Shown here piece after piece: positions 45,225 through 63,814 of a stretch of DNA of 64,000 bases. This stretch comes from Cerasicoccus frondis (lineage in GTDB: Bacteria; Verrucomicrobiota; Verrucomicrobiia; Opitutales; Cerasicoccaceae). Position 1 is the stretch's first letter, and every line of letters begins with the position of its first letter. Both the position numbers and the translations under genes were made by a program. The notes beneath the pieces are model-generated. The model was not told the origin of the DNA. It searched no databases and worked only from the letters and a program-made list of their open reading frames with translations. Location: contig JAVDPC010000028.1 in the NCBI GenBank assembly GCA_031296915.1, positions 22,476 through 86,475 on the forward strand, in the 5' to 3' direction.

Positions 45225-45917
45225 ATGAATACCCCCAAGCATTCCAATACTCCTGATCGTCTCCACGATCTGACTCAATCGAGATGTGGATTTACACTCA
45301 TCGAGCTCCTGGCGGTTGTCGCCATCATTGGCATCTTGGGAAGCATTATCTACGCTGTTGGAAATCGCGCCTACATCAGCTCACAGAAAGCAGTATCCAT
45401 GTCAGGACTGAGAGATGTTGGCATGGCTATGGCAATGTACACTCAGGAAAACGACGGCTACTTGCCAGGGCCATTGTATGGAGGGCAGTCCGCGCGCTAT
45501 GCCCAGGATGATCGCATGCTGGGCTATCACTTATGGTCCTACTTGGAGCTGCCTGAGCCCTCGAATAGCCGACAGCCATTTCCCCCTTTAACCTGCCCCT
45601 TGTTCGATGACTTAACCGATGATGCCGCCCCCGCATACTTCATGCAGCAGACCGTAGCGATGCCAGCAGGCAATCGAAACCCTTGGGGCTATCGTCGTGC
45701 TGACCAAACCGAAGACGAGGGATCGAAGCCACAGTTAATCAACCTGATCCAAATGGCGAATAATGAAAATACCTGGGCCATGCGCGCCGCAGACGCAGGC
45801 TCGAATAATTCCCCTCAAGCGGGTTGGGCTGACAAGCTTTTGCCCGAGCCGCTGTATAGCGGCGAGCGCCTGCACCTCTACTACGACTGGCACGTAGAAT
45901 TCGTGCCAGTAGATTAA
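45225..45917 (+). CDS. Prepilin-like (type II pseudopilin) protein in polysaccharide locus
   Basis: 230 residues: unusually long leader ending CG (Gly22), then FTLIELLAVVAIIGILGSII with Glu at +5, then a C-terminal domain ending LHLYYDWHVEFVPVD. That end resembles the H-X9-DG tail of Verrucomicrobia/Planctomycetes prepilin-like proteins, but Trp replaces the Gly of the DG pair. It is embedded 9 bp after the lyase gene, inside the operon. A role in surface capture of substrate or in pseudopilus function is possible. Confidence 0.8.
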   Translation: MNTPKHSNTPDRLHDLTQSRCGFTLIELLAVVAIIGILGSIIYAVGNRAYISSQKAVSMSGLRDVGMAMAMYTQENDGYLPGPLYGGQSARYAQDDRMLGYHLWSYLELPEPSNSRQPFPPLTCPLFDDLTDDAAPAYFMQQTVAMPAGNRNPWGYRRADQTEDEGSKPQLINLIQMANNENTWAMRAADAGSNNSPQAGWADKLLPEPLYSGERLHLYYDWHVEFVPVD

Positions 45918-48670: not shown

Positions 48671-49090
48671 TTGACCTGCGAGCGCATCATAAGTGTGTTC
48701 AAAGCTGTGCAGAAATTCCGCCTGGTAATTGTCATTCTGGGATTGGTGGCCGTGTTCGCCGCCAACGGATTGCACTTGCCTATTATCCAAGGCGCAGCCT
48801 GGGTGAAAATGTATCAGGGCTACAGCGAGGTAATGCCCTCCTACCAGGCCTTGGAGTACACCATGAAGAGTGAGAACATGTGCGGCGTTTGCTCATGGGT
48901 GCAGGATCACAATCCCGCCAGCGAGAAGGACGACCTCAATTCGTCTGACACGGCACAAACACAACCGCTCATCTGGCTGTTCATGGCGACGATACAAATC
49001 ATCGCGCCCGAACAGCGAACTTATTTCCATTTGTTTGACGGAGTAACGGCGGACCAACTGCCTGCCTCCGCCCCAATCCTACCCCCATAA
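48671..49090 (+). CDS. Small membrane-anchored protein with CGVC motif, unknown function
   Basis: Up to 139 residues from a TTG at 48671; GTG at 48695 (MFKAVQKFRLVIVILGLVA) is an equally good start. An N-terminal membrane helix is followed by GAAWVKMYQGYSEVMPSYQAL and a MCGVCSWVQ dithiol motif. I recall short Verrucomicrobia hypotheticals with a similar helix, AWxxM and CxxC layout, of unknown role. It precedes the prepilin and PEP-CTERM/cytochrome genes on the same strand and might belong to that module. Confidence 0.5.
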   Translation: MTCERIISVFKAVQKFRLVIVILGLVAVFAANGLHLPIIQGAAWVKMYQGYSEVMPSYQALEYTMKSENMCGVCSWVQDHNPASEKDDLNSSDTAQTQPLIWLFMATIQIIAPEQRTYFHLFDGVTADQLPASAPILPP

Positions 49091-49222
49091 GTCCGAGCAC
49101 TGCGACTATACTGTGTCCGCGCGTACGCTGTGTTCTGGCGTCCGTGCGGTTTCTGCTGAAGGCGCATTCGCTGCGCTTTAGCGCTGTGCCTGTAACGAGC
49201 ATTGCTCACGACTTATTTGGAA

Positions 49223-49903
49223 ATGGATATCCACAAGCGGGGTTTCACCCTCGTAGAATTACTCACGACGATTGCGATCATCGCGATTCTAGGCGCAATC
49301 CTGATCAGCGCCGTTGGCGAGGTGCGTGAGCGCGCCAAAGCAACGGAGTGCATGACCAATCTCCGCAGCATAGGCCAGGGAGCTCATTTGTATGCGGTGG
49401 ACCACAACAGTGCACTGCCGACGAATGAACATTCCGGCGGACTAGCTGCTTCCTGGATGTGGCAGTTACTCGACTACATAAACCCTGAGATACCGAACAA
49501 CCAGCGCACCCGCGCCTTCAGCCACTATTTTCGTTCCCCCTTGGACGAAAATGAGGAGCGGCTCTGGAGCTACGCCTTAAATGATTTCCTCGCGCCCAGC
49601 AGCGAAGCCAACGGAGCTTACTCCGTGGCCACCCGACTGTCACAGGTTGAGCGACCCGAATCCACGCTGATGGCGACGGTATGCACCGTAGACTATTCCG
49701 ACTCAGACCATTTCCATTTCACATCGATCAGCGATGGCGCCAGCAGCGCATTCTCGCAACAAGTCGCGACCCAACTACACAACGGCGAAGGGCATTACCT
49801 GTTTGCCGACGGCCACGTGGATTCACTTGCGTGGGATGAAGTCGCCCAACGCCTCGAACCGCTACATCCCTTTGTCGCGCCCAGACCAGCAAACAACCTT
49901 TAA
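49223..49903 (+). CDS. H-X9-DG type prepilin-like protein
   Basis: 226 residues from the ATG at 49223 (MDIHKRG then FTLVELLTTIAIIAILGAIL); an upstream TTG is less likely. The leader is cleaved after Gly7. The C-terminus has HNGEGHYLFADGHVDSL, a clear H-x9-DG signature of the large prepilin-like families of Verrucomicrobia and Planctomycetes. It lies 3 bp before the PEP-CTERM gene and so is probably co-expressed with the beta-propeller cytochrome gene after that. Confidence 0.82.
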   Translation: MDIHKRGFTLVELLTTIAIIAILGAILISAVGEVRERAKATECMTNLRSIGQGAHLYAVDHNSALPTNEHSGGLAASWMWQLLDYINPEIPNNQRTRAFSHYFRSPLDENEERLWSYALNDFLAPSSEANGAYSVATRLSQVERPESTLMATVCTVDYSDSDHFHFTSISDGASSAFSQQVATQLHNGEGHYLFADGHVDSLAWDEVAQRLEPLHPFVAPRPANNL

Positions 49904-49906
49904 ATC

Positions 49907-50593
49907 ATGACCAAACTTTCTCAATTTCTCATTACCGCTACGTGCTTAACCGTTGCGACTTCCGCCATCGCCCAGCACACGCACATCAACGCTGGCGCTT
50001 ATGACGAAGCCGACCGCAGCTACATCGAAATCGGCGATCCGCTGATCGCTTACAACGCGCCGGACGAGATCGAGTTCGACTACAATGACGGCGCCAGCAC
50101 TGCAGGCGAAGACGGCTTCTTCTACGAAAGCGACTTCACCTTCGCCGCTTACGACAGCTATTATTACAACCCGTCGACGCAGATCGGCGGCGCAGTCGAA
50201 GGCTCCTCCATCTACATTGAGTTCTGGGGCATCGCAAGCGGACCCGAAGGCGGCGCCTTTGCTTTTTACGAAGCTGGCGCAACCGACCCGACGTTTCTCT
50301 CGACGGTCGAAGATGGGCAGGGCTATGTCGGGATATTCAACCTCAGTGACCCAGCTTTAGCGCCGAACGCTTTTGGGCACATCCATGGCCGGGTATACGC
50401 GATCACCAAGCCTGGCACATACGAGACTTATTGGAAGCTGGTCGACGAGAATGGCAACCAAACAGACAGCAGCGTTTTCACCCTCACCTTCACCGCAGTC
50501 CCCGAACCGGCGCATTTCGCGATGCTCGCCGCCGTTGGCATGCTTGCGCTCATGGTGATGCGTGAACGGCGCCGCTCGTCCATGAGACGATGA
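49907..50593 (+). CDS. PEP-CTERM protein with His-rich surface-anchor-like domain
   Basis: 228 residues with a signal peptide and a mature N-terminus of HTHINAGAYDEADRSYIEIG. The central IHGRVYAITKPGTYETYWKL resembles the H.H...G.Y pattern of choice-of-anchor M / All3515-type surface proteins, some of which are zinc-regulated. C-terminal sorting signal: VPEP from residue 198, membrane helix, RERRR. Its stop codon overlaps the start of the cytochrome/beta-propeller gene (ATGA), an unusually tight coupling that suggests substrate-enzyme or partner relationship. Confidence 0.75.
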   Translation: MTKLSQFLITATCLTVATSAIAQHTHINAGAYDEADRSYIEIGDPLIAYNAPDEIEFDYNDGASTAGEDGFFYESDFTFAAYDSYYYNPSTQIGGAVEGSSIYIEFWGIASGPEGGAFAFYEAGATDPTFLSTVEDGQGYVGIFNLSDPALAPNAFGHIHGRVYAITKPGTYETYWKLVDENGNQTDSSVFTLTFTAVPEPAHFAMLAAVGMLALMVMRERRRSSMRR

Positions 50594-53142
50594 AACTCCC
50601 CACATTCACGTTGTTGCTCGCACTCGCGTTAAGCGAGGCGGCGGGTGACTACGTGCATTACGAGGCGCGGCAAACGCGGCCAATTGTGCTGTCACCGGAT
50701 GGCCAAACGATACTGGCGCTGAACTCGCCAGATGCGCGACTGTCAGTGTTCAATGTTGGCAATGCCGACAACCCGGCGCCGGTGTTGATCCGTGAGATAC
50801 CCGTGGGCTTGGAACCCGTGGCCCTCGCCGCGCGCAACGACGACGAGGTGTGGGTGGTCAACGAGTTGTCGGACAGCATCTCAGTCGTGTCGCTCAACCG
50901 CCGCGCAGTCATCGCCACTCTGCCCGCTCCCGATGAACCCGCAGACATCCTCATCGCTGGCGACAGGGCCTACGTAACCTGTGCGCGCAGCAACGAGCTC
51001 GCCGTCTTCGATGTCACCACGCGCAAGTTACTCACCCGCATACCGCTCGAAGGATTGCTGCCGCGCGCATTAGCGATCAGCCCCGATGGCGCCCAGCTCT
51101 ACGCCGCCTTTTTTCACTCGGGCAACAACACTACAACACTCAACTTTCGCGATGCGCCCGCACAACCCGCGCCGGACAACCCCGAATTGCCAACGGCTCC
51201 CAAGACGGCCCTCATCGTTACCGACACTGACTCTCGCATCAGCTACGACGTCATCGATCACGACATCGCGGTGATCGATACCGAAAGGTTGGAAGTCGTC
51301 GACTATATTGGCGGCGTTGGCACGAATCTTTTCTCGCTGGCTACGCTATCCGATGGCAGCCTGTGGGCCGGGCACACCGAAGCGCGTAATTTGATCCGCT
51401 TCGAACCGGCGCTCAACGGCGTCTTTGCAAGCAGTCGAATCGGCGTCATCAACGGGGACGACCTGACGCTGATCGCGCTGAACCCATTCGACGACCAACC
51501 GTTTGCCACCGCTGCTGAAAAGGCTCAGGCGCTCGCGCAACCATTGGCGTTTGCAGTTGATGAAAACACAGTGTGGCTGGCCGCCTACGGCAGTGATCGT
51601 GTCGCGGAATTATCCAACGATGGCGAAGTTCTGCGCATCATCGACCTGCGCGCAAACGCGTCGGTCGATTCCTCTCAGATGCGCGGCCCACGCGGTTTGG
51701 CGCTGGGTCCGCATAACCGCCTTTTTGTGCTGAATAAATTGAGCAACACCGTAAGTGTCATTGACCGCGCAACGGGCGCCGTCGTCGCTGAAACACCGGC
51801 CGGTAGTTACGACCCGACGCCCGACATCGTGCGACGCGGCCGCAGTTTTTTCAACGACGCGCGCCTCTCTGGCAACGGCACAGTCTCCTGCGCCAGTTGC
51901 CATCTGGACGCCGACCGCGACGGCATTGCCTGGGATCTCGGCGATCCGGGAGGCGAGCTCGAATACGTCATCGGTTACGATTTATCCATCGATGAAACCG
52001 AGCCGGTCATCCGCACGATGCACCCCATGAAAGGGCCAATGGTCACGCAATCCCTGCGCGGCTTGAAGGGGCAGGCGCCGTTCCACTGGCGCGGCGACCG
52101 ACCAGCAATTCAGGACTTCAATCCGTCCTTCGAAAACCTACAAGCTGGCGAGCAACTGAACTCTGAAGACATCGACGCCGTCGCCGCATACCTCGAGTCC
52201 ATTGCGCATCATCCAAACCCGAACCTGCAACTGGACCGCAGCTTGCCCGAGACGCTGAACGGCGCCGATCCACTGCGCGGCCAAGAGCTGTTCATTCACC
52301 CCAACAACCTGTGCTCCGCCTGCCACACCCTGCCCGAAAGCACGAACCATAATCTGGATTTGTTCACGAGCGTCTTGTCCACGCAGCCGGTTAAAAACGC
52401 CTCCTTGCGACTCGCCTATCAGAAGAACTTTTACACACCGCAAAGCGGGCAAACCTTGAGCGGCTTTGGCTATGGTCACGATGGGGCCGGACCGGGCCTA
52501 CCCAGTGGCCACGAATACGATATCGACATTCTCGACATCATCGAAAATGGCGAAGCAGATGTATCCGCGTTCGTGCTGTCGATTGACACTGGCACGGCGC
52601 CGACGGTCGGCTACACTCTAACACTCTCCGGAGACGCCACACCTTCGCCGGACGAACTTGAAGCAATCGAGCTGCTGGAGTCCCGAGATGCCGTAGGCGA
52701 CTGTGAACTGGTCGTTCGCGGCGTGTGGCAAGGCCGCATGACATCCTGGCGATTCGATGCTGAACAGGAGCTTTATCTCCCCGATTCCAGCAGACAAACT
52801 CCGATCAACCGGAGTGAACTGATCAACCAACTCAACACCGATGATAGCCTAACATTCTTAGGCGCGCCAATCGGCCAAGGTGACCGCTTGGGCGGCGACC
52901 GCAATCAAGACGGCATACTGGATCAAGACGAGCCAAAGCCCGATCTCGAGATGTGCAACATGCATGGCCAGAGCTTAGCCAGTTGGCCCAACAACGCCCT
53001 CGGCTGGCGCCTCGAAACCACTCCGTCACTCAGGGACGAGTGGAGCATTGTCACCGATAGCATTGAGCAAATTTCCGAAAATCAACAAGGCATTCACGCC
53101 ACCCAACCGCGACAATTTTTCCGATTAACCCGCACTTGGTAA
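50590..53142 (+). CDS. YVTN beta-propeller/di-heme cytochrome c peroxidase-like (MauG-like) protein, paralogue 1
   Basis: 850 residues with a signal peptide (LLLALALSEAAG). Residues about 25-400 form a YVTN/NHL beta-propeller (HYEARQTRPIVLSPDGQTI, DEVWVVNELSDSISVVSL). The C-terminal region is di-heme: CASCH at 434-438 and CSACH at 575-579, with PMKGPMVTQSLRGLKGQAPF between them as in MauG/CcpA-type proteins. It ends QFFRLTRTW. It may carry out radical or peroxide-dependent oxidation of partner proteins. Translationally coupled to the PEP-CTERM gene upstream; a second PEP-CTERM gene starts 12 bp after it. Confidence 0.85.
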   Translation: MKLPTFTLLLALALSEAAGDYVHYEARQTRPIVLSPDGQTILALNSPDARLSVFNVGNADNPAPVLIREIPVGLEPVALAARNDDEVWVVNELSDSISVVSLNRRAVIATLPAPDEPADILIAGDRAYVTCARSNELAVFDVTTRKLLTRIPLEGLLPRALAISPDGAQLYAAFFHSGNNTTTLNFRDAPAQPAPDNPELPTAPKTALIVTDTDSRISYDVIDHDIAVIDTERLEVVDYIGGVGTNLFSLATLSDGSLWAGHTEARNLIRFEPALNGVFASSRIGVINGDDLTLIALNPFDDQPFATAAEKAQALAQPLAFAVDENTVWLAAYGSDRVAELSNDGEVLRIIDLRANASVDSSQMRGPRGLALGPHNRLFVLNKLSNTVSVIDRATGAVVAETPAGSYDPTPDIVRRGRSFFNDARLSGNGTVSCASCHLDADRDGIAWDLGDPGGELEYVIGYDLSIDETEPVIRTMHPMKGPMVTQSLRGLKGQAPFHWRGDRPAIQDFNPSFENLQAGEQLNSEDIDAVAAYLESIAHHPNPNLQLDRSLPETLNGADPLRGQELFIHPNNLCSACHTLPESTNHNLDLFTSVLSTQPVKNASLRLAYQKNFYTPQSGQTLSGFGYGHDGAGPGLPSGHEYDIDILDIIENGEADVSAFVLSIDTGTAPTVGYTLTLSGDATPSPDELEAIELLESRDAVGDCELVVRGVWQGRMTSWRFDAEQELYLPDSSRQTPINRSELINQLNTDDSLTFLGAPIGQGDRLGGDRNQDGILDQDEPKPDLEMCNMHGQSLASWPNNALGWRLETTPSLRDEWSIVTDSIEQISENQQGIHATQPRQFFRLTRTW

Positions 53143-53154
53143 ATTACAAATATA

Positions 53155-53850
53155 ATGAATAAAACATACTGCACACTAGGCTCACTGATGCTCTCAGCCA
53201 TCGCGGCTGAGGCGACCTTGAGCATCACCACCTACGACACCACGCACTTGCCCTACCAGCGCGAGGTCACGATCAGTGCTGGCGAAGACACCGCCAATGC
53301 TGGCCCTGGCAATGAAAGCATGGACTTCAATGTCGGCGGCTGGAGCTGGGAAGACTTGAGGACTACCGCGAACCCTAATCGCGGTTGGGGGCATACCTCC
53401 GATTGGATTCTGCTCGACCTGACGGAAGACGCCTACGTGACCTTTTACCAAACGCTGGATGCCAGTGATTTGGGCGCAGAAAATATTGCCCCGGGCTTCA
53501 CCGTCTACAGCGGCGAGAAGACCACTGGCGATTTCTCGGCCGGTCATAGCTACAATAACAACGGCAAAGAAATGTCCCTCAACGATGCATGGGACCCAAC
53601 CGACGAATTGAGCTACTTCACCTCCTATTTCTCAACGCTGGCCGAAGACATTTCCTGGTCCGTCTACATGCCGGCCGGACTTTACACGATCGCCATTGGC
53701 AACCGAGCAGACTCCGATCTGGCGCCGACCGCAGTCGACTACAACTTCCGCATTGTCACGACAGCCGTCCCCGAGCCCACGACATATGCGTTGATCGGCG
53801 GCCTGCTCTCACTGCTCTTCGTCGCGGTGCGCCGTCGCCGGATGCAATAG
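53155..53850 (+). CDS. PEP-CTERM protein, pre-peptidase-like domain
   Basis: 231 residues with signal peptide (LMLSAIAAEATLS). The body is a beta-sandwich with WGHTSDWILLDLTEDAYVTF and MPAGLYTIAIGNRADSD, similar to bacterial pre-peptidase C-like domains. Sorting signal: VPEP, helix, RRRRMQ. It sits 12 bp after the first cytochrome/beta-propeller gene and its 3' end is convergent with the second copy, 1 bp away, so it may serve both. Confidence 0.72.
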   Translation: MNKTYCTLGSLMLSAIAAEATLSITTYDTTHLPYQREVTISAGEDTANAGPGNESMDFNVGGWSWEDLRTTANPNRGWGHTSDWILLDLTEDAYVTFYQTLDASDLGAENIAPGFTVYSGEKTTGDFSAGHSYNNNGKEMSLNDAWDPTDELSYFTSYFSTLAEDISWSVYMPAGLYTIAIGNRADSDLAPTAVDYNFRIVTTAVPEPTTYALIGGLLSLLFVAVRRRRMQ

Positions 53851-53851
53851 C

Positions 53852-56443
53852 CTACCAGGTGCGGCGCAATCGGTAGAACATGGCGGCCCCCGAACGTTCA
53901 TCCGTTTGCGAAGTGGTGTCCCCGTCCGTTTCCTGAGGAGACAGGACGGGAAGCCACGCGCCGCTCAAGCCAGGATTATATTCCCAAAACCAATCATTCG
54001 ACAGCGCCGGTTTATCCAGTTGGACGACGGCGCCAGCTTCTGTCACTTGGAGTTGCCCAATCGGCGCATCCGCCTCGCCATCGGCAACGGCGTCTTCATC
54101 CCGGTCCAAACTAAATCGGGCGCCCTGCCCCGGCGGCACGCCGAGAAACGTCAGGTAGTCGCCCGGCTCGCGACCCGCCAACAGCTCTGTCCGCGAAAGT
54201 AACTGCGCACCGACATCCGACTGATAGTTGTCCGCCGTCGGATCGTAAAGAAAACCTCGCGGCTTACCGCCCCAAGCGCCGCGCACGATTAGATCGCAAT
54301 CCCCCACGCCGGACCGAGCCTCAAGCAACGCAATATCGCTTAGCGCTTCTGTATCCAAATTTCCGGAGTCCACTACCCGCTGATAGCCAACCGTCGGCGC
54401 CGTGCCGGTATCGAATGAAAGCACGTAAGCCGTCATGTCTGGGAAGTCCTCTTCCGTAAGGACATCAAGCACATACGGGTGCCCGCGCGGCATCGAGAAT
54501 CGGCTGCCATCATGCCCCAGGCCGTAGCCGCTGACCGTCGTCTCATCTTCGGGCGTAAAATCCTGCTTCTGGTAAACCGCCCGCAACGTCGGGTTTTTCA
54601 TAAACTGCCGCAGACCCACCAGACTGGGAATGTCGAGGTTGTTGTCCGTGCCCGTCGGCAAAATGTGGCATACAATGCAGTGGTTGTCGTGCGGCAGATA
54701 AAGCTCCTCGCCGCGCACGGCATTGCCACCGTTGAGTTCGGTTTTCAGCGAGCGGTCGAGGTTCTGATTCGGATTCGGGTGCAAGCCAATCGATTCAATG
54801 TAAGCCGCGAGCGCATCGATGGCTTCATCTGAAATTTCTTCGCCTGCCATGAGCTTTTCGTAGTTGCTGTTGAAGCTCTGCAAAGTCGGTTTGTCCCCGC
54901 GCCAATGGAAGGGCGCCTGCCCCTTGATGCCGCGCAATGTCTGCGTCATCATCGGCCCCTTCATGGGGTGCAGCGAGCGCTCGTACAGCGTCGGATCGTG
55001 CAGGGATAAATCGGCCCCCAGCACGGTGACCATCTCGCCATTGGGGTCACCGAGATCCCAGGCCAACCCGTCGCGGTCGGCGTCGATGTGGCAAGTCGCG
55101 CAAGAAACAGTGCCATTTCCAGAAAGACGCGCATCGAAAAGAAACCCACGCCCGGCGGCAATGGTTTCGGGCAAAGGGTCATGGCTGCCAGCCGGCGTTT
55201 CGCCGAGAATAGCGCCCGTAGTTGCGTCCACCGAAATGATGCTGCCCGACAGCTTGTTGTAGACGAAAATGCGTCCCGTCGTGCTCTGGTAGACAAGGCC
55301 CCGCGGCCCCCGCATGTGGGCGGAGTCCTCGCCCACTGGCCGCAAGTCGACAATGGTCTCGACCTCCCCGTCGTAGCTTAGGCGCGCCAGGCGATCCGAC
55401 CCGAAAGCGGCTACCCATAGCCCAGTTGAAAGCGCCAACATCGCGTCGGGTTGGGCGAGTGACGTCGCCAAGTCTTCGTCCGTCGCGACAGGTCCATCCA
55501 TCCAGGGATTCAGGTCAAATACGTCGGCCTCGCCATTGGCGCGATTAATCCGCGTCACGCGGTTTTGCGCAAAAATGCCGTTCACCGCCGACTCGAATCG
55601 AATCAGGTTATGCGCCTCGGTATTGCTCGCCCAAAGATCACCGAATGGGTCGAGCGCAAGGTTGAAAATATTGGCGCCGACGCCTTCAAAATAGTCATCG
55701 ACCGTCAGCGTTTCGATGTCGATAACGGCAATGTCGTGGTCCAGCACATCGTAGCCAATACGCGCATCGGTGTCCGCCACCAGTAGCCCAACTTTGGGCG
55801 GGGTCGGCAGCTCAGTGTTCGTGGGGTCCGGTTGAGTGGGAGCGTCGCCTTCGGGCAAGATCGTCGTGTTGTTTCCGGAAAAAAGAAACGCAGCATAAAC
55901 TTGGCCATTCAGTTCATCAGCCAACAAAGCTCGTGGCATGACGCCCTCCAATTCAATCTGCGTCAACTCAACATGAGTCGTCGCATCAAGCACGCGAATC
56001 AAGCTATCGCGAGAGCAAGAAACGAACGCCTTCCCCCCGGCAAAGACGACGTCCGCCGGCTCGTCTGGCGTGTAGATCGAAGCAACGGTGGACCGAGCCG
56101 AAAGGGACACAATGGAAATGCTGTCCGACAACTCATTGACCACCCACACCTCGTCGTTGTTACGCACCGCGATGGAAACCGGCTCCAGCCCAACAGGAAT
56201 TTCTGCGATCAGAATCGGTGTCGGGTTTGCTTGGTTTTCCACGTTGAACACCGACATACGCGCATCCGTGCTGTTGAGCGCCAGGAGATGCCGCCCGTCC
56301 GGCGTTAGCGCCAATGGCCTTGTATGTCGCGCTTCATAATGCACATACTCCGCCCTCCCGCAATGGACTGAAAATGTGAACATGAGGACGAGTATTCTGC
56401 GAAGTAAACCTAGCATCTGAAACAAAGGCCAATTAGATGCCAA
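53852..56443 (-). CDS. YVTN beta-propeller/di-heme cytochrome c peroxidase-like (MauG-like) protein, paralogue 2
   Basis: 863 residues, clearly paralogous along its length to the 50590-53142 product (for example EYVHYEARHTRPLALTPDG at the start of the propeller and MFYRLRRTW at the end). Hemes: CATCH at 448-452 and CIVCH at 589-593. A TTG start at 56443 is chosen because AAAGGAG lies about 5 bp before it; the ATG at 56416 lacks such a site. It is on the opposite strand, tail to tail with the PEP-CTERM gene. The 232-bp upstream gap to the AraC gene has no supported gene but probably holds its promoter. Confidence 0.83.
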   Translation of the reverse strand: MASNWPLFQMLGLLRRILVLMFTFSVHCGRAEYVHYEARHTRPLALTPDGRHLLALNSTDARMSVFNVENQANPTPILIAEIPVGLEPVSIAVRNNDEVWVVNELSDSISIVSLSARSTVASIYTPDEPADVVFAGGKAFVSCSRDSLIRVLDATTHVELTQIELEGVMPRALLADELNGQVYAAFLFSGNNTTILPEGDAPTQPDPTNTELPTPPKVGLLVADTDARIGYDVLDHDIAVIDIETLTVDDYFEGVGANIFNLALDPFGDLWASNTEAHNLIRFESAVNGIFAQNRVTRINRANGEADVFDLNPWMDGPVATDEDLATSLAQPDAMLALSTGLWVAAFGSDRLARLSYDGEVETIVDLRPVGEDSAHMRGPRGLVYQSTTGRIFVYNKLSGSIISVDATTGAILGETPAGSHDPLPETIAAGRGFLFDARLSGNGTVSCATCHIDADRDGLAWDLGDPNGEMVTVLGADLSLHDPTLYERSLHPMKGPMMTQTLRGIKGQAPFHWRGDKPTLQSFNSNYEKLMAGEEISDEAIDALAAYIESIGLHPNPNQNLDRSLKTELNGGNAVRGEELYLPHDNHCIVCHILPTGTDNNLDIPSLVGLRQFMKNPTLRAVYQKQDFTPEDETTVSGYGLGHDGSRFSMPRGHPYVLDVLTEEDFPDMTAYVLSFDTGTAPTVGYQRVVDSGNLDTEALSDIALLEARSGVGDCDLIVRGAWGGKPRGFLYDPTADNYQSDVGAQLLSRTELLAGREPGDYLTFLGVPPGQGARFSLDRDEDAVADGEADAPIGQLQVTEAGAVVQLDKPALSNDWFWEYNPGLSGAWLPVLSPQETDGDTTSQTDERSGAAMFYRLRRTW

Positions 56444-60406: not shown

Positions 60407-63400
60407 TCAGCGCTCGTTTAATTCCAGTCGGACAAAGGCAGGCTTCGAAAAACTGGTCAGGTCTACATCGAGCATCATTGGGCCCGTTGAGTCCGATCGG
60501 AATTGGTCCACTTCGTCCCAGCGGACTAGATCATCGGAAACCAGTACGGTATAGCGGCGCGTCTTAATCAAATTTGCCAGGATGTGAAGTGTTTCTCCGG
60601 AAAATCCATCAACTTCCATCGTAAGTGGCGTCGAGTTGTAGACATTGGGATCAGTCTCCAATAATTGCTCCAATTTATTGGAAAGCTGATCGCCGTCAGG
60701 ATCGGCCATAGGATCTGCATTTGATGGCTCACCACTAAAGTAGTGTATTGCGAACTCCATGTATTGCGTATCGCCGATGGCGCTTGCTGCGCTGGGTAGG
60801 ATTCCAATCTCCGTGGTGAGAAACGTCTGTGGCTCGCCATCTTGACTGTTGGGAAAGTCGACCTCAAAGGCAGTCGCCAACAAGTTTGTCAGTTGATCGG
60901 CAAAGGCGAGAATGTGGAGAACCTGCGGTCCGCTGTTGACATTATATATCCGCCACACGCCGTTTTGATTCGTGATGGCGTATGAGTCATATTCGCGCTC
61001 GAATGCGCCACTCTCATTGTTATCAAAATAAATCGTAACTCCTTGAACGCCATTTTCGTTTTCGTCATACAGTCCGTTCTGGTTTTCATCGTTGAACACC
61101 AAACCTTGAATCGTATTAAGCCGTTCCAGTTCAAAATCAATCTCCTGGCTGTGGGTGAGATCATCGAGGGCAATGGTAGACCTGCGACCGACCGAAACGC
61201 GGTAGCCTAAAGGAACAATCACACTGATGTTGCCCGTTCCCTCGGGTATGCCCGAAATCCCGTAACCACCATCAGCCCGAGTGATCGTAGTTGGGTCAAT
61301 ACCCGGATCAAATGCAAGGTTATCGTTGGCATCTGCATAAATGCGGAATCCTGACAGCGGCTCTCCGGTATTTACATCGGTGAGCGTGCCATAAACTTGG
61401 GGGCGGATGACATAAGGACCGATTAGCTCGGAGTATTTTACTGATTGCCGACCATTGAGCAGCCGAGCGTAGAGGTAAAATTCTTCGGCTACGTTACCTG
61501 TGGGGTTGTAGGCATTCCAGGTAATCTGACTGGTAGCAGAGTCCAGATCATCCGGATTCGTGTACTCTATATCGGAAATAATTTTATAGCCATTGCGACC
61601 GTTGGCGTCGGTATCCAAATGTAGGGAGATTACCGTGTCCTCAGCGAATTCTTGCGGAGAGTAACTTTCGATATCGAGGGTAATCAGATCGTTATAATCA
61701 AAGGACGTCGCGGTTGAAGCCAGATGCGTTCTCAGATACGCGGTATTTTGGGCAAGAACCGCTGCTTGAGCTTGGGCAACAGTGGCGGCGATTTTTGAGT
61801 CCTTGCGCCCCATTCCAAAAAGGACATGGGGCTCCTCTATGTGAATTTTTCCGTCATATAGCCTGAGATATTCGAGGGAGAGCTTCACTTCGCCTGCGGC
61901 GATGGCCGCCTGGAGTTCAACGCTGCCAGAGAGGGCGCTGAAAAATAAGCCTTCAGTGCTGAGGCGCACGCCATTCGTATTCTCCAGTATGCTGAACTCG
62001 TCATCATAGGATGTCGTAAATGCCTTTGCATTGGCATCGTAAGTAAGTTGGTAGAGGCTAAGCTCTTGTTCCACCACTTCGCCTCCTTTGGACGTGACAT
62101 GGCCGGTGGCGGTGACCACTATTTCCGGCACGGGCGACGTTCCCCAAACGCCATCGTTCACATCAGGGTCGTAGCTCCAGCGAAAATTGGCCACCATCGA
62201 CTTCACGCCTTCAGGTGCAGTGACATGATAGGTCTTTTTGATGCTATCGGACCCATCAAGCGCTTCAGTGGTCTCGTTTTCAATGTTAGAAATCTCTGAA
62301 CCTGAAATGAATGAAAAAGACCCATCGTCGAAAGTGTACTGGATACCTGCTTCCTCATCGTGAACTAGCAAATCGATGTCTACCCATCCCGCTGCAAAGC
62401 TTTTAGACGAATCCAAGTTGTCAATCAGTAGGGCTGCATCAATGGAACCGAGATCCGATCCCCCTATCAGCTTGATATCATCTGGAACACGTACTTCGGC
62501 TTGAGCCATCAGGGCGACTTCATCTTTGTTGAACACCAAGTCTTCAGAGATTTTTATTCCGTAATCAGTGGGCAAGCTGACACCACCAGCCAGCGAATAG
62601 TCTTCCTTCGTCCAGTCGAAATTAATTTCCGCGTTTCCGGTGAAAATGAGCGACTTCCAATCATCATGACTGTCTTCGTATGCTCCAAAATAGACCGCGT
62701 CAGTGAGTCGCAACTCATTGTGATTGATATAAGCTTCACCGCCAACATAAGCGAGTGTCACGGTGACGCCGTCAATTTCTATTTGTCCACCGAACTCGAG
62801 CCCAATGCCACCTTTGAAGAAAAATTCACTGGGCTGGTTTAGGTTTTGCAGTTCGATATTGACGTCCACAATGCTGACGCCTGTCTCCGGAATTTCAAAT
62901 CCATCGGTTGTGCCCTCCGCTTGAAAATCGAGGAATATACTATGAATTTGCCCATTTTGTTCCACTACTTTGCCTGCGACCTCCAGACCGAGCTCAGGGA
63001 TGTAGACATCGAGATCAATATCCACGTCAACTTCGTTGTTAACCCGGGAAAAGGAGACTTGGAGCTCTCGCATACTCACGAAACCGAGCGATAAATGGTC
63101 GATAGCAATTTCAAACTCCTCAACTTGCCAGGAGTTGTTTTCCACGATAATCCCCTGTTGCGCCGCAGTTCCCAGAGAAACAGTAGCTTGCCATAGGCTG
63201 TCGAGTGACACCTCGCCGCTTAGGGAATAGTAGTCATCTTCTGCTCGATATTGTAAGGTCAGTGGGTCGCTCGATGGCGAACGTAGAGTAAAGCCGCCTA
63301 AGGAAATATCTGTAGCGACACCGATATTAACTTCGTCCACCGTACCATTTTTGATCAAGAGGCCCGGTTCGCTCTCATTGCCAAGGAGGGCATCCAAGCT

Positions 63401-63814
63401 GTCGCCATCTATCTCAAGATCGATTTCGCCGTATATAGAAAAATCGTCGCTGGCTTCACGATAATTAAAGGTCACGCCGCTTTCCCCCGCCGACATGTCG
63501 AGTTCATAAAGTGTAAAGTCGCCTTCGATTCGGGATTCCAATTTGAGAATTTCGTAGTCGCCGCCAGAGTCTCGAACCTCCAAGCCATTGGGCGGAACCG
63601 TAGCGACGATTTCCTCAGTTTCGAATGATGCTTTCAGTGACCCACTGCCAACATAGACCGAGTCCTCGCCTTCCTTTATGGTGAAATTGAGCCCTTCGGC
63701 GCTGAATGTCATTCCCGCCACAGAGAAATCCTCAGTTGGAGGAGCAGCTTCAACTACACCAAACAGCCCTATCAACCCAAAGAAAACACAGTGCAAAATG
63801 ATCCTACCCCTCAT
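60407..63814 (-). CDS. Large secreted multidomain protein with SdrD_B-like domain
   Basis: 1135 residues with a signal peptide (IILHCVFFGLIGLFGVVEA). Residues about 30-560 consist of beta-rich units with recurring motifs (DFSIYGEIDLEI, YYSLSGEVSL, DYSLAGGVSLP), probably beta-solenoid or adhesin-like. Residues about 840-1010 hold two regulatory or SdrD_B-like beta-sandwich domains (YGTLTDVNTGEPLSGFRIYA, then VFNDENQNGLYDENENG with calcium-type Asp/Asn). Near the end ADPDGDQLSNKLEQLLETDP is a TSP3-like calcium repeat, and the last 90 residues form a domain ending FVRLELNE. Acidic and Cys-poor. Function unknown, probably surface or adhesion-related. Confidence 0.8.
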   Translation of the reverse strand: MRGRIILHCVFFGLIGLFGVVEAAPPTEDFSVAGMTFSAEGLNFTIKEGEDSVYVGSGSLKASFETEEIVATVPPNGLEVRDSGGDYEILKLESRIEGDFTLYELDMSAGESGVTFNYREASDDFSIYGEIDLEIDGDSLDALLGNESEPGLLIKNGTVDEVNIGVATDISLGGFTLRSPSSDPLTLQYRAEDDYYSLSGEVSLDSLWQATVSLGTAAQQGIIVENNSWQVEEFEIAIDHLSLGFVSMRELQVSFSRVNNEVDVDIDLDVYIPELGLEVAGKVVEQNGQIHSIFLDFQAEGTTDGFEIPETGVSIVDVNIELQNLNQPSEFFFKGGIGLEFGGQIEIDGVTVTLAYVGGEAYINHNELRLTDAVYFGAYEDSHDDWKSLIFTGNAEINFDWTKEDYSLAGGVSLPTDYGIKISEDLVFNKDEVALMAQAEVRVPDDIKLIGGSDLGSIDAALLIDNLDSSKSFAAGWVDIDLLVHDEEAGIQYTFDDGSFSFISGSEISNIENETTEALDGSDSIKKTYHVTAPEGVKSMVANFRWSYDPDVNDGVWGTSPVPEIVVTATGHVTSKGGEVVEQELSLYQLTYDANAKAFTTSYDDEFSILENTNGVRLSTEGLFFSALSGSVELQAAIAAGEVKLSLEYLRLYDGKIHIEEPHVLFGMGRKDSKIAATVAQAQAAVLAQNTAYLRTHLASTATSFDYNDLITLDIESYSPQEFAEDTVISLHLDTDANGRNGYKIISDIEYTNPDDLDSATSQITWNAYNPTGNVAEEFYLYARLLNGRQSVKYSELIGPYVIRPQVYGTLTDVNTGEPLSGFRIYADANDNLAFDPGIDPTTITRADGGYGISGIPEGTGNISVIVPLGYRVSVGRRSTIALDDLTHSQEIDFELERLNTIQGLVFNDENQNGLYDENENGVQGVTIYFDNNESGAFEREYDSYAITNQNGVWRIYNVNSGPQVLHILAFADQLTNLLATAFEVDFPNSQDGEPQTFLTTEIGILPSAASAIGDTQYMEFAIHYFSGEPSNADPMADPDGDQLSNKLEQLLETDPNVYNSTPLTMEVDGFSGETLHILANLIKTRRYTVLVSDDLVRWDEVDQFRSDSTGPMMLDVDLTSFSKPAFVRLELNER

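Follow-up and report, generated by a model that had tools for sequence, protein, structure and literature searches.

We analyzed a 64,000-nucleotide stretch of a Cerasicoccus frondis contig (JAVDPC010000028.1; Verrucomicrobiota), here called the window, and focused on a six-gene locus at positions 48,671 to 56,443. In this order, the genes encode a small CxxC protein, a prepilin-like protein, the PEP-CTERM protein PEP1, the propeller/di-heme enzyme ENZ1, a second PEP-CTERM protein named COR, and the paralogous enzyme ENZ2 (Table 1). Judged from its sequence, COR is a homologue of CorA and MopE, the Cu(I) surface proteins of methanotrophs, and the enzyme clade to which ENZ1 and ENZ2 belong is tightly linked to COR genes. 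We propose that the locus is probably a copper-capture operon: COR would be a PEP-CTERM-anchored Cu(I) protein whose residue W78 is converted to kynurenine by the propeller/di-heme enzymes, and PEP1 and the CxxC protein would pass copper inward.

COR and its link to a clade of propeller/di-heme enzymes

A profile of COR and 12 relatives was compared with all PDB sequences. Only CorA (4bz4; 6.4e-6) and MopE (2vov; 5e-4) were matched at E ≤1. The copper(I)-binding CorA model PF18252 scored 26.3 bits on COR (cut-off, 27), which is its sole match in the host genome. COR relatives matched this model at E ≤0.01 in 5/13 cases, and one tandem relative (locus L025) passed it with 48 bits. Tandem architecture is common in the family, with 2 to 4 CorA-like domains per protein in 13/26 relatives. 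The predicted COR structure had a predicted local distance difference test (pLDDT) score of 68.8, and its best four rows in a Foldseek search were MopE and CorA. The same two proteins ranked at the top with VIA-align. There, unrelated beta-sandwiches scored nearly as high, so the fold by itself would not decide the identity of COR.

In CorA, H64 and H114 bind the copper next to kynurenine 62 (PMC3912023), as do His132 and His203 in MopE next to a kynurenine derived from Trp130 (PMC3423442). Sequence alignment revealed that the Trp-x-His and the second His of this copper site are present in COR. The three residues are nearly invariant in COR domains (W78, 54/54; H80, 54/54; H131, 53/54). The 54 domains are the window COR and those 53 of 63 CorA-like stretches that scored above 100 bits, the ten omitted stretches being Asp-type (see below) or partial.

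ENZ1 and ENZ2 are 51% identical, and each consists of one lactonase/YVTN-type propeller and a part with two CxxCH motifs. They are the only strong ones among three matches in the host genome; the third is 30% identical over approximately 207 residues. Both exceeded the cut-off of the CCP_MauG-type domain PF03150 (31.8 and 31.0 bits; cut-off, 25.6). Heme motif 1 (C434, C437, and H438 in ENZ1) was found in 88/88 aligned enzymes and heme motif 2 in 86/88, with the remaining two gapped at this place. Tyr628, a putative counterpart of the distal Tyr ligand of the second heme in MauG, is a Tyr in only 5/88 rows. The curated models of better-known di-heme enzymes were not reached. ENZ1 and ENZ2 scored 16.9 and 23.6 bits with the MauG model TIGR03791 (cut-off, 443.85), and 28.0 and 23.1 bits with the MbnH model TIGR04039 (cut-off, 362.85). 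Membership in the MbnP/MbnH family was considered and rejected, as the curated models were not reached. The ENZ1 structure was predicted with a pLDDT of 83.9 and a predicted template modeling score of 0.90, although many stretches in the di-heme half lie at a pLDDT of 50 to 75. Since the fold-search lists of ENZ1 were filled by propellers, the nearest relative of the di-heme half rests on sequence profiles. According to these, the nearest solved relatives of the enzyme architecture appear to be the beta and gamma subunits of hydrazine synthase. Both enzymes stay far below the cut-off of the beta-gamma fusion model NF052342 (71.3 and 41.2 bits; cut-off, 1250).

The linkage was surveyed in a genome collection searched for the enzyme pair. 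The best 80 of 567 confirmed loci were used, so the sample leans towards close relatives. An enzyme tree was calculated from 86 of 88 rows (two shorter than 600 residues were omitted) and rooted at the midpoint. All 31 COR-adjacent rows, including ENZ1 and ENZ2, fell inside one group of 39 (support in the Shimodaira-Hasegawa-like approximate likelihood ratio test, 100). The remaining eight rows of this clade lie on contigs that stop 0 to 98 bp past the enzyme. A COR gene was found in 26/34 loci of the clade, in all 26 at a distance of 0 to 211 bp from an enzyme, and in 25/25 clade loci with at least 600 bp downstream. In contrast, no COR gene was detected in the 46 loci outside the clade, of which 33 extend for 2.5 kb or more to either side. 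Counts from one further profile (hyg) were disregarded in this survey, as it also matches CorA-like proteins. These 46 include L091 and L092, which are truncated, yet 49% and 48% identical. The arrangement enzyme-COR-enzyme recurs in L022, L023, and L041, but with all genes on one strand. There, the first enzyme is a sister of ENZ1, and the second does not group with ENZ2.

A second survey covered a draw of 387 genomes from the phylum of the window, with an enzyme threshold of E ≤1e-60. Full-length COR was found in five genomes and the enzyme in seven, and 5/5 COR genes lie directly beside an enzyme. Ten further genomes had matches to the C-terminal tail of COR only and were not counted. The two surveys overlap, because two of the seven enzyme genomes correspond to L040 and L055. 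One of the five COR genomes is that of L040, and the result is therefore not fully independent of the clade survey. The initial annotation had tied the enzymes to a sorted surface protein and suggested a gene-neighborhood survey; in both samples, the linkage turned out to be conserved in other genomes. Enzyme relatives outside the COR clade can occur as tandem copies (three at L095:3669-12688 and two at L094:7158-12763). No COR gene was found within these two loci.

An Asp-type sister family and copper-type neighbors

Among the 387 genomes, nine contain members of a COR-related family (A7) with the pattern AH-x-x-Y ... GWAD ... GDSH. A tenth match was merely the tail of a COR gene and was excluded. 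Comparison of the A7 and COR profiles gave a probability score of 99.0, to which the shared PEP-CTERM tail contributes, and aligned an Asp with W78 and a His with H80. The Asp stands in place of W78 in 12/12 aligned rows. In one genome (G436, locus L133), GDxH was not found by pattern search, so that the Asp was seen in 8/9 A7 genomes. Eight of the nine contain neither the enzyme nor full-length COR. In the sole A7 genome with an enzyme (G378, locus L125), one protein combines the Asp-type domain with Trp-type domains.

Thus, the enzyme tracks the Trp-type and not the Asp-type proteins, as is expected if the task of the enzyme is to change the Trp. The enzyme was present in 5/5 Trp-type genomes versus 0/8 Asp-only genomes (Fisher p = 0.0008, with kinship ignored). 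Two of the five Trp-type and four of the eight Asp-only genomes each belong to a single genus, which leaves four genera versus five. In 12/12 A7 rows, a His directly follows the apparent signal-peptide Ala (A23-H24; e.g., L122:8320-9162 and L134:4633-5424). This suggests an N-terminal histidine metal site in the A7 proteins.

Several neighboring genes point to copper, which is most likely the metal of the system. An SCO1-type cluster is represented in 9/34 loci of the enzyme clade versus 0/46 loci outside. Six of these nine genes are located within 2.2 kb of the enzyme, and the other three are 4.5 to 9 kb away. The Pfam model SCO1-SenC was passed by the cluster member of L020, the only one checked, and by a separate gene in L125. 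In addition, a TonB receptor gene is located next door in 2/6 regions with PEP1 relatives, and one of these two regions also harbors a CusF gene scoring over the cut-off. The His motifs and a weak match of PEP1 to a Zur-family model had brought zinc and iron into consideration, but neither was retained. The limitation of this match to PEP1 residues 167 to 201 and the SCO1 and CusF neighbors of some relatives led us to prefer copper.

A further protein family was found near COR in 18/34 clade loci (e.g., L018:13158-14213, L040:13249-14184, and L126:7409-8344). Several of its members contain HHGxDF directly after an apparent signal peptide, and some have His-rich loops. Its members in L018 and L126 matched neither Pfam nor NCBIfam models at E ≤0.01.

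Proposed maturation of COR, known systems, and alternatives

In the copper-capture operon that we propose, COR would be exported and then anchored through its PEP-CTERM tail. The di-heme domain, which is MauG/MbnH-like, would pull electrons from W78 using peroxide or oxygen, resulting in kynurenine. In MbnP, kynurenine formation is due to MbnH. A probable task of the propeller is to dock the substrate or a partner. Oxidized COR could then bind Cu(I) through H80 and H131, with the kynurenine beside the metal, and PEP1 and the CxxC protein may be further surface or envelope metal-handling parts that hand copper inward. Oxidative maturation and metal capture had been put forward in the initial annotation as separate possible roles. 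Both are supported by our data, and they fit together, since the copper site of CorA and MopE, where a Trp-derived kynurenine is located beside Cu(I), is kept in COR.

The same annotation stated that no described system known to it has this combination, which is not supported: pairs of a Cu(I) protein and a di-heme peroxidase-type protein were described as CorA/CorB in Methylomicrobium album BG8 and as MopE/SACCP in Methylococcus capsulatus Bath (PMC3912023, PMC3621798). Because CorB and SACCP resemble MauG, the authors of the CorA study proposed that they oxidize the Trp (PMC3912023). As in these pairs, the gene of a surface protein with a W-x-H...H site lies here beside a gene for a di-heme c-type peroxidase-like protein. 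Unlike them, the system described here belongs to Verrucomicrobiota, its surface protein has a PEP-CTERM tail and often forms the domain strings mentioned above, two enzymes flank one substrate, and the enzymes carry an N-terminal propeller. CorB and SACCP are not known to carry a propeller, and their heme spacing is wider. MbnP and MbnH (TIGR04052/TIGR04039) are likewise a conserved pair of a partner protein and a di-heme enzyme (PMC3621798). In contrast, neither COR nor PEP1 matched the MbnP model at E ≤1, and ENZ1 is far from the MbnH cut-off. Thus, the kind of system is already known, and the enzyme architecture, the PEP-CTERM anchor, the tandem CorA-like domains, and the two enzymes around one substrate are new. 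A literature search, which covered few subscription journals and included PMC6189053, yielded no description of CorA-like/propeller-di-heme pairs in Verrucomicrobiota.

One published observation weighs against conversion of W78 by the enzymes: faster growth was seen after mutation of corB in M. alcaliphilum (PMC3912023, PMC11784148). A corA deletion mutant of M. buryatense 5GB1 showed normal growth on methane (PMC11784148). The faster growth would suit a role of the enzymes as redox partners of COR, which reduce Cu(II) to Cu(I) or serve surface electron transfer, while W78 stays unchanged or is oxidized as a by-product. This role, which we consider rather unlikely, would also agree with the retention of both hemes across the whole enzyme family without need of COR, and with the cytochrome-type genes (cluster c6) found within 1.3 kb of the enzyme in 7/34 clade loci (the L019 member lacks CxxCH). 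However, the Asp-type proteins should benefit just as much from a Cu(II) reductase, and 8/9 genomes with such proteins have no enzyme, in contrast to 5/5 Trp-type genomes that do. This objection is valid only if the Asp-type proteins need Cu(I), too.

It is also conceivable that COR, as a surface protein with the CorA fold, holds a different metal or ligand, with the site kept for structural reasons and the enzymes modifying something else. In favor of this, PF18252 stays just under its cut-off, the beta-sandwich fold is common, and PEP1 weakly matches a Zur-repressed PEP-CTERM family, the match being confined to the segment beside the anchor. W-x-H and the second His are almost fully conserved, and some relatives have SCO1 and CusF neighbors, which argues for copper; we regard another ligand as improbable. 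Very improbable, in our view, is that the enzymes act mainly on PEP1 and that COR is incidental. The overlap of the PEP1 and ENZ1 genes in the window would be explained in this way, and in L017 a PEP1-like frame likewise overlaps the enzyme frame, provided that the enzyme begins at its earliest possible start. Yet in 6/7 genomes with PEP1 relatives, the enzyme is missing (E ≤1e-60), and COR was found in every clade locus with sufficient downstream sequence. Conversion of W78 in COR by the linked enzymes remains the explanation that we favor.

If the same site and its own di-heme enzyme clade exist in Verrucomicrobiota outside the described methanotrophs, this would generalize the chemistry: in the portions of the literature examined, a kynurenine beside copper is described only for CorA and MopE of methanotrophs. 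Trp-type proteins with the enzyme and Asp-type proteins without it are natural controls, and whether a partner enzyme makes kynurenine becomes directly testable. We tentatively consider it possible that a branch of Verrucomicrobiota captures copper at modular surfaces made of exosortase-anchored strings of CorA-like domains. Propeller/di-heme maturases resembling hydrazine synthase would turn the Trp residues of these domains into kynurenine, alongside an Asp-type sister family that has no enzyme and carries a His at the apparent mature N-terminus. If this is true, the maturase follows the Trp, and kynurenine copper sites would be a general metal strategy instead of a methanotroph specialty. 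Trp-modifying maturases would then also be placed next to hydrazine synthase in evolution.

The PEP1 unit, locus layout, and host genome

The CxxC protein, the prepilin, and PEP1 form a second, partly independent unit. The initial annotation had treated the two PEP-CTERM proteins as parts of one module. The link of COR to the enzymes was borne out, and PEP1 with its His motifs belongs to the other unit. PEP1 relatives were found in 7/387 genomes, counted with that of the window; 16 further matched genomes had C-terminal stretches only and were not counted. H26, H158, and H160 are invariant in 4/4 aligned sequences. PEP1 appears to be a distant relative of the choice-of-anchor M family (NF038134; cut-off, 55). 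With 17.1 bits it is not a formal member, and its relatives matched similarly weakly (17.0, 26.3, and 22.7 bits; best E value, 6.6e-6). In the six PEP1 regions, a recognizable prepilin gene adjoins in 3/6. The window prepilin exceeded the cut-offs of PF07963 (28.9 versus 21.2 bits), PF07596 (28.7 versus 23.3), and TIGR02532 (29.2 versus 16.3), and its position between the CGVC protein and PEP1 is the same in L017 and L063. The prepilin-like proteins next to PEP1 (window 49202-49903; L017:1636-2331; L063:19771-20508) share a DHFHF motif. Possibly, then, a pseudopilin with a putative metal site accompanies the PEP1 unit.

The CxxC protein had no Pfam or NCBIfam family above the cut-off. In an alignment of 13 rows, W44, M47, T64, C71, C74, P138, and P139 are invariant. 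The family consensus reads W-x-x-M ... T-F-D-G-x-H-P-C-x-x-C ... PPP; its W, M, T, both Cys, and PP are retained in the window copy. A relative was found in 27/30 clade loci with at least 1.5 kb upstream, the exceptions being the three two-enzyme loci. In the regions examined, CxxC genes were also present in 4/4 further COR genomes, 6/6 PEP1 genomes, and 3/3 further Asp-type genomes. The idea of a regulator site common to the regions upstream of the CxxC gene was rejected: in 40 such regions, the most frequent 6-, 7-, and 8-mers did not exceed the frequency in letter-shuffled regions. Gapped palindromes, counted without a shuffled control, were common to at most 2/40 regions.

Table 1. Features of the locus and their positions in the window.
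Feature	Position	Strand	Evidence
Small CxxC (CGVC) protein, 139 residues, hydrophobic N-terminal stretch	48671..49090	+	read from sequence
Prepilin-like protein, N_methyl motif, DUF1559-type	49202..49903	+	PF07963, PF07596, TIGR02532
PEP1, PEP-CTERM surface protein; H24/H26 near mature N-terminus, H158/H160 in GHIHGR	49907..50593	+	
ENZ1, YVTN propeller (approximately residues 28-395) fused to di-heme domain, 850 residues	50590..53142	+	
ENZ1 heme motif 1, CASCH, residues 434-438	51889..51903	+	
ENZ1 heme motif 2, CSACH, residues 575-579	52312..52326	+	
COR, CorA/MopE-like Cu(I)-binding-type protein (predicted), PEP-CTERM tail	53155..53850	+	PF18252, profile, Foldseek
W78, predicted kynurenine precursor (= CorA Kyn62, MopE Trp130)	53386..53388	+	alignments
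H80, predicted Cu ligand (= CorA H64, MopE His132)	53392..53394	+	alignments
H131, predicted Cu ligand (= CorA H114)	53545..53547	+	alignments
ENZ2, second propeller/di-heme enzyme, converging on COR, 863 residues	53852..56443	-	
ENZ2 heme motif 2, CIVCH, residues 589-593	54665..54679	-	
ENZ2 heme motif 1, CATCH, residues 448-452	55088..55102	-	
ENZ2 start codon, TTG, AGGAG upstream		-	

The gene layout, the tail-to-tail paralogues, and the overlap between PEP1 and ENZ1 were all found as initially annotated. Five plus-strand genes are followed by one converging minus-strand gene, PEP1 and ENZ1 overlap by ATGA (50590-50593), ENZ1 and COR are 12 bp apart, and a single base separates the stop codons of COR and ENZ2. 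A VPEP motif, a hydrophobic stretch, and an Arg cluster were read in the tails of COR and PEP1. Both proteins passed the PEP-CTERM model TIGR02595 (COR, 22.6 bits; PEP1, 16.5; cut-off, 16). By itself, PF07589 scored 20.3 bits on COR and 15.1 on PEP1 (cut-off, 20.7). The host genome contains at least 65 PF07589 matches, with COR and without PEP1 among them (150/171 candidates were scored), and six exosortases. Surface sorting is therefore routine in this organism, and the presence of a tail alone is weak evidence.

The module is patchy: the enzyme (E ≤1e-20) was found in 0/3 same-genus and 0/6 same-family genomes searched. A search of the host genome with PF02461 (particulate methane monooxygenase/ammonia monooxygenase) was empty, but the controls likewise gave nothing. 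Positions 45225-45917 of the window, which lie upstream of the module but not next to it, encode a second protein with a prepilin motif. On the minus strand near the module, positions 60407-63814 encode a protein of 1135 residues with an SdrD_B-like match over the cut-off and a weaker match to a carboxypeptidase-regulatory-like family.

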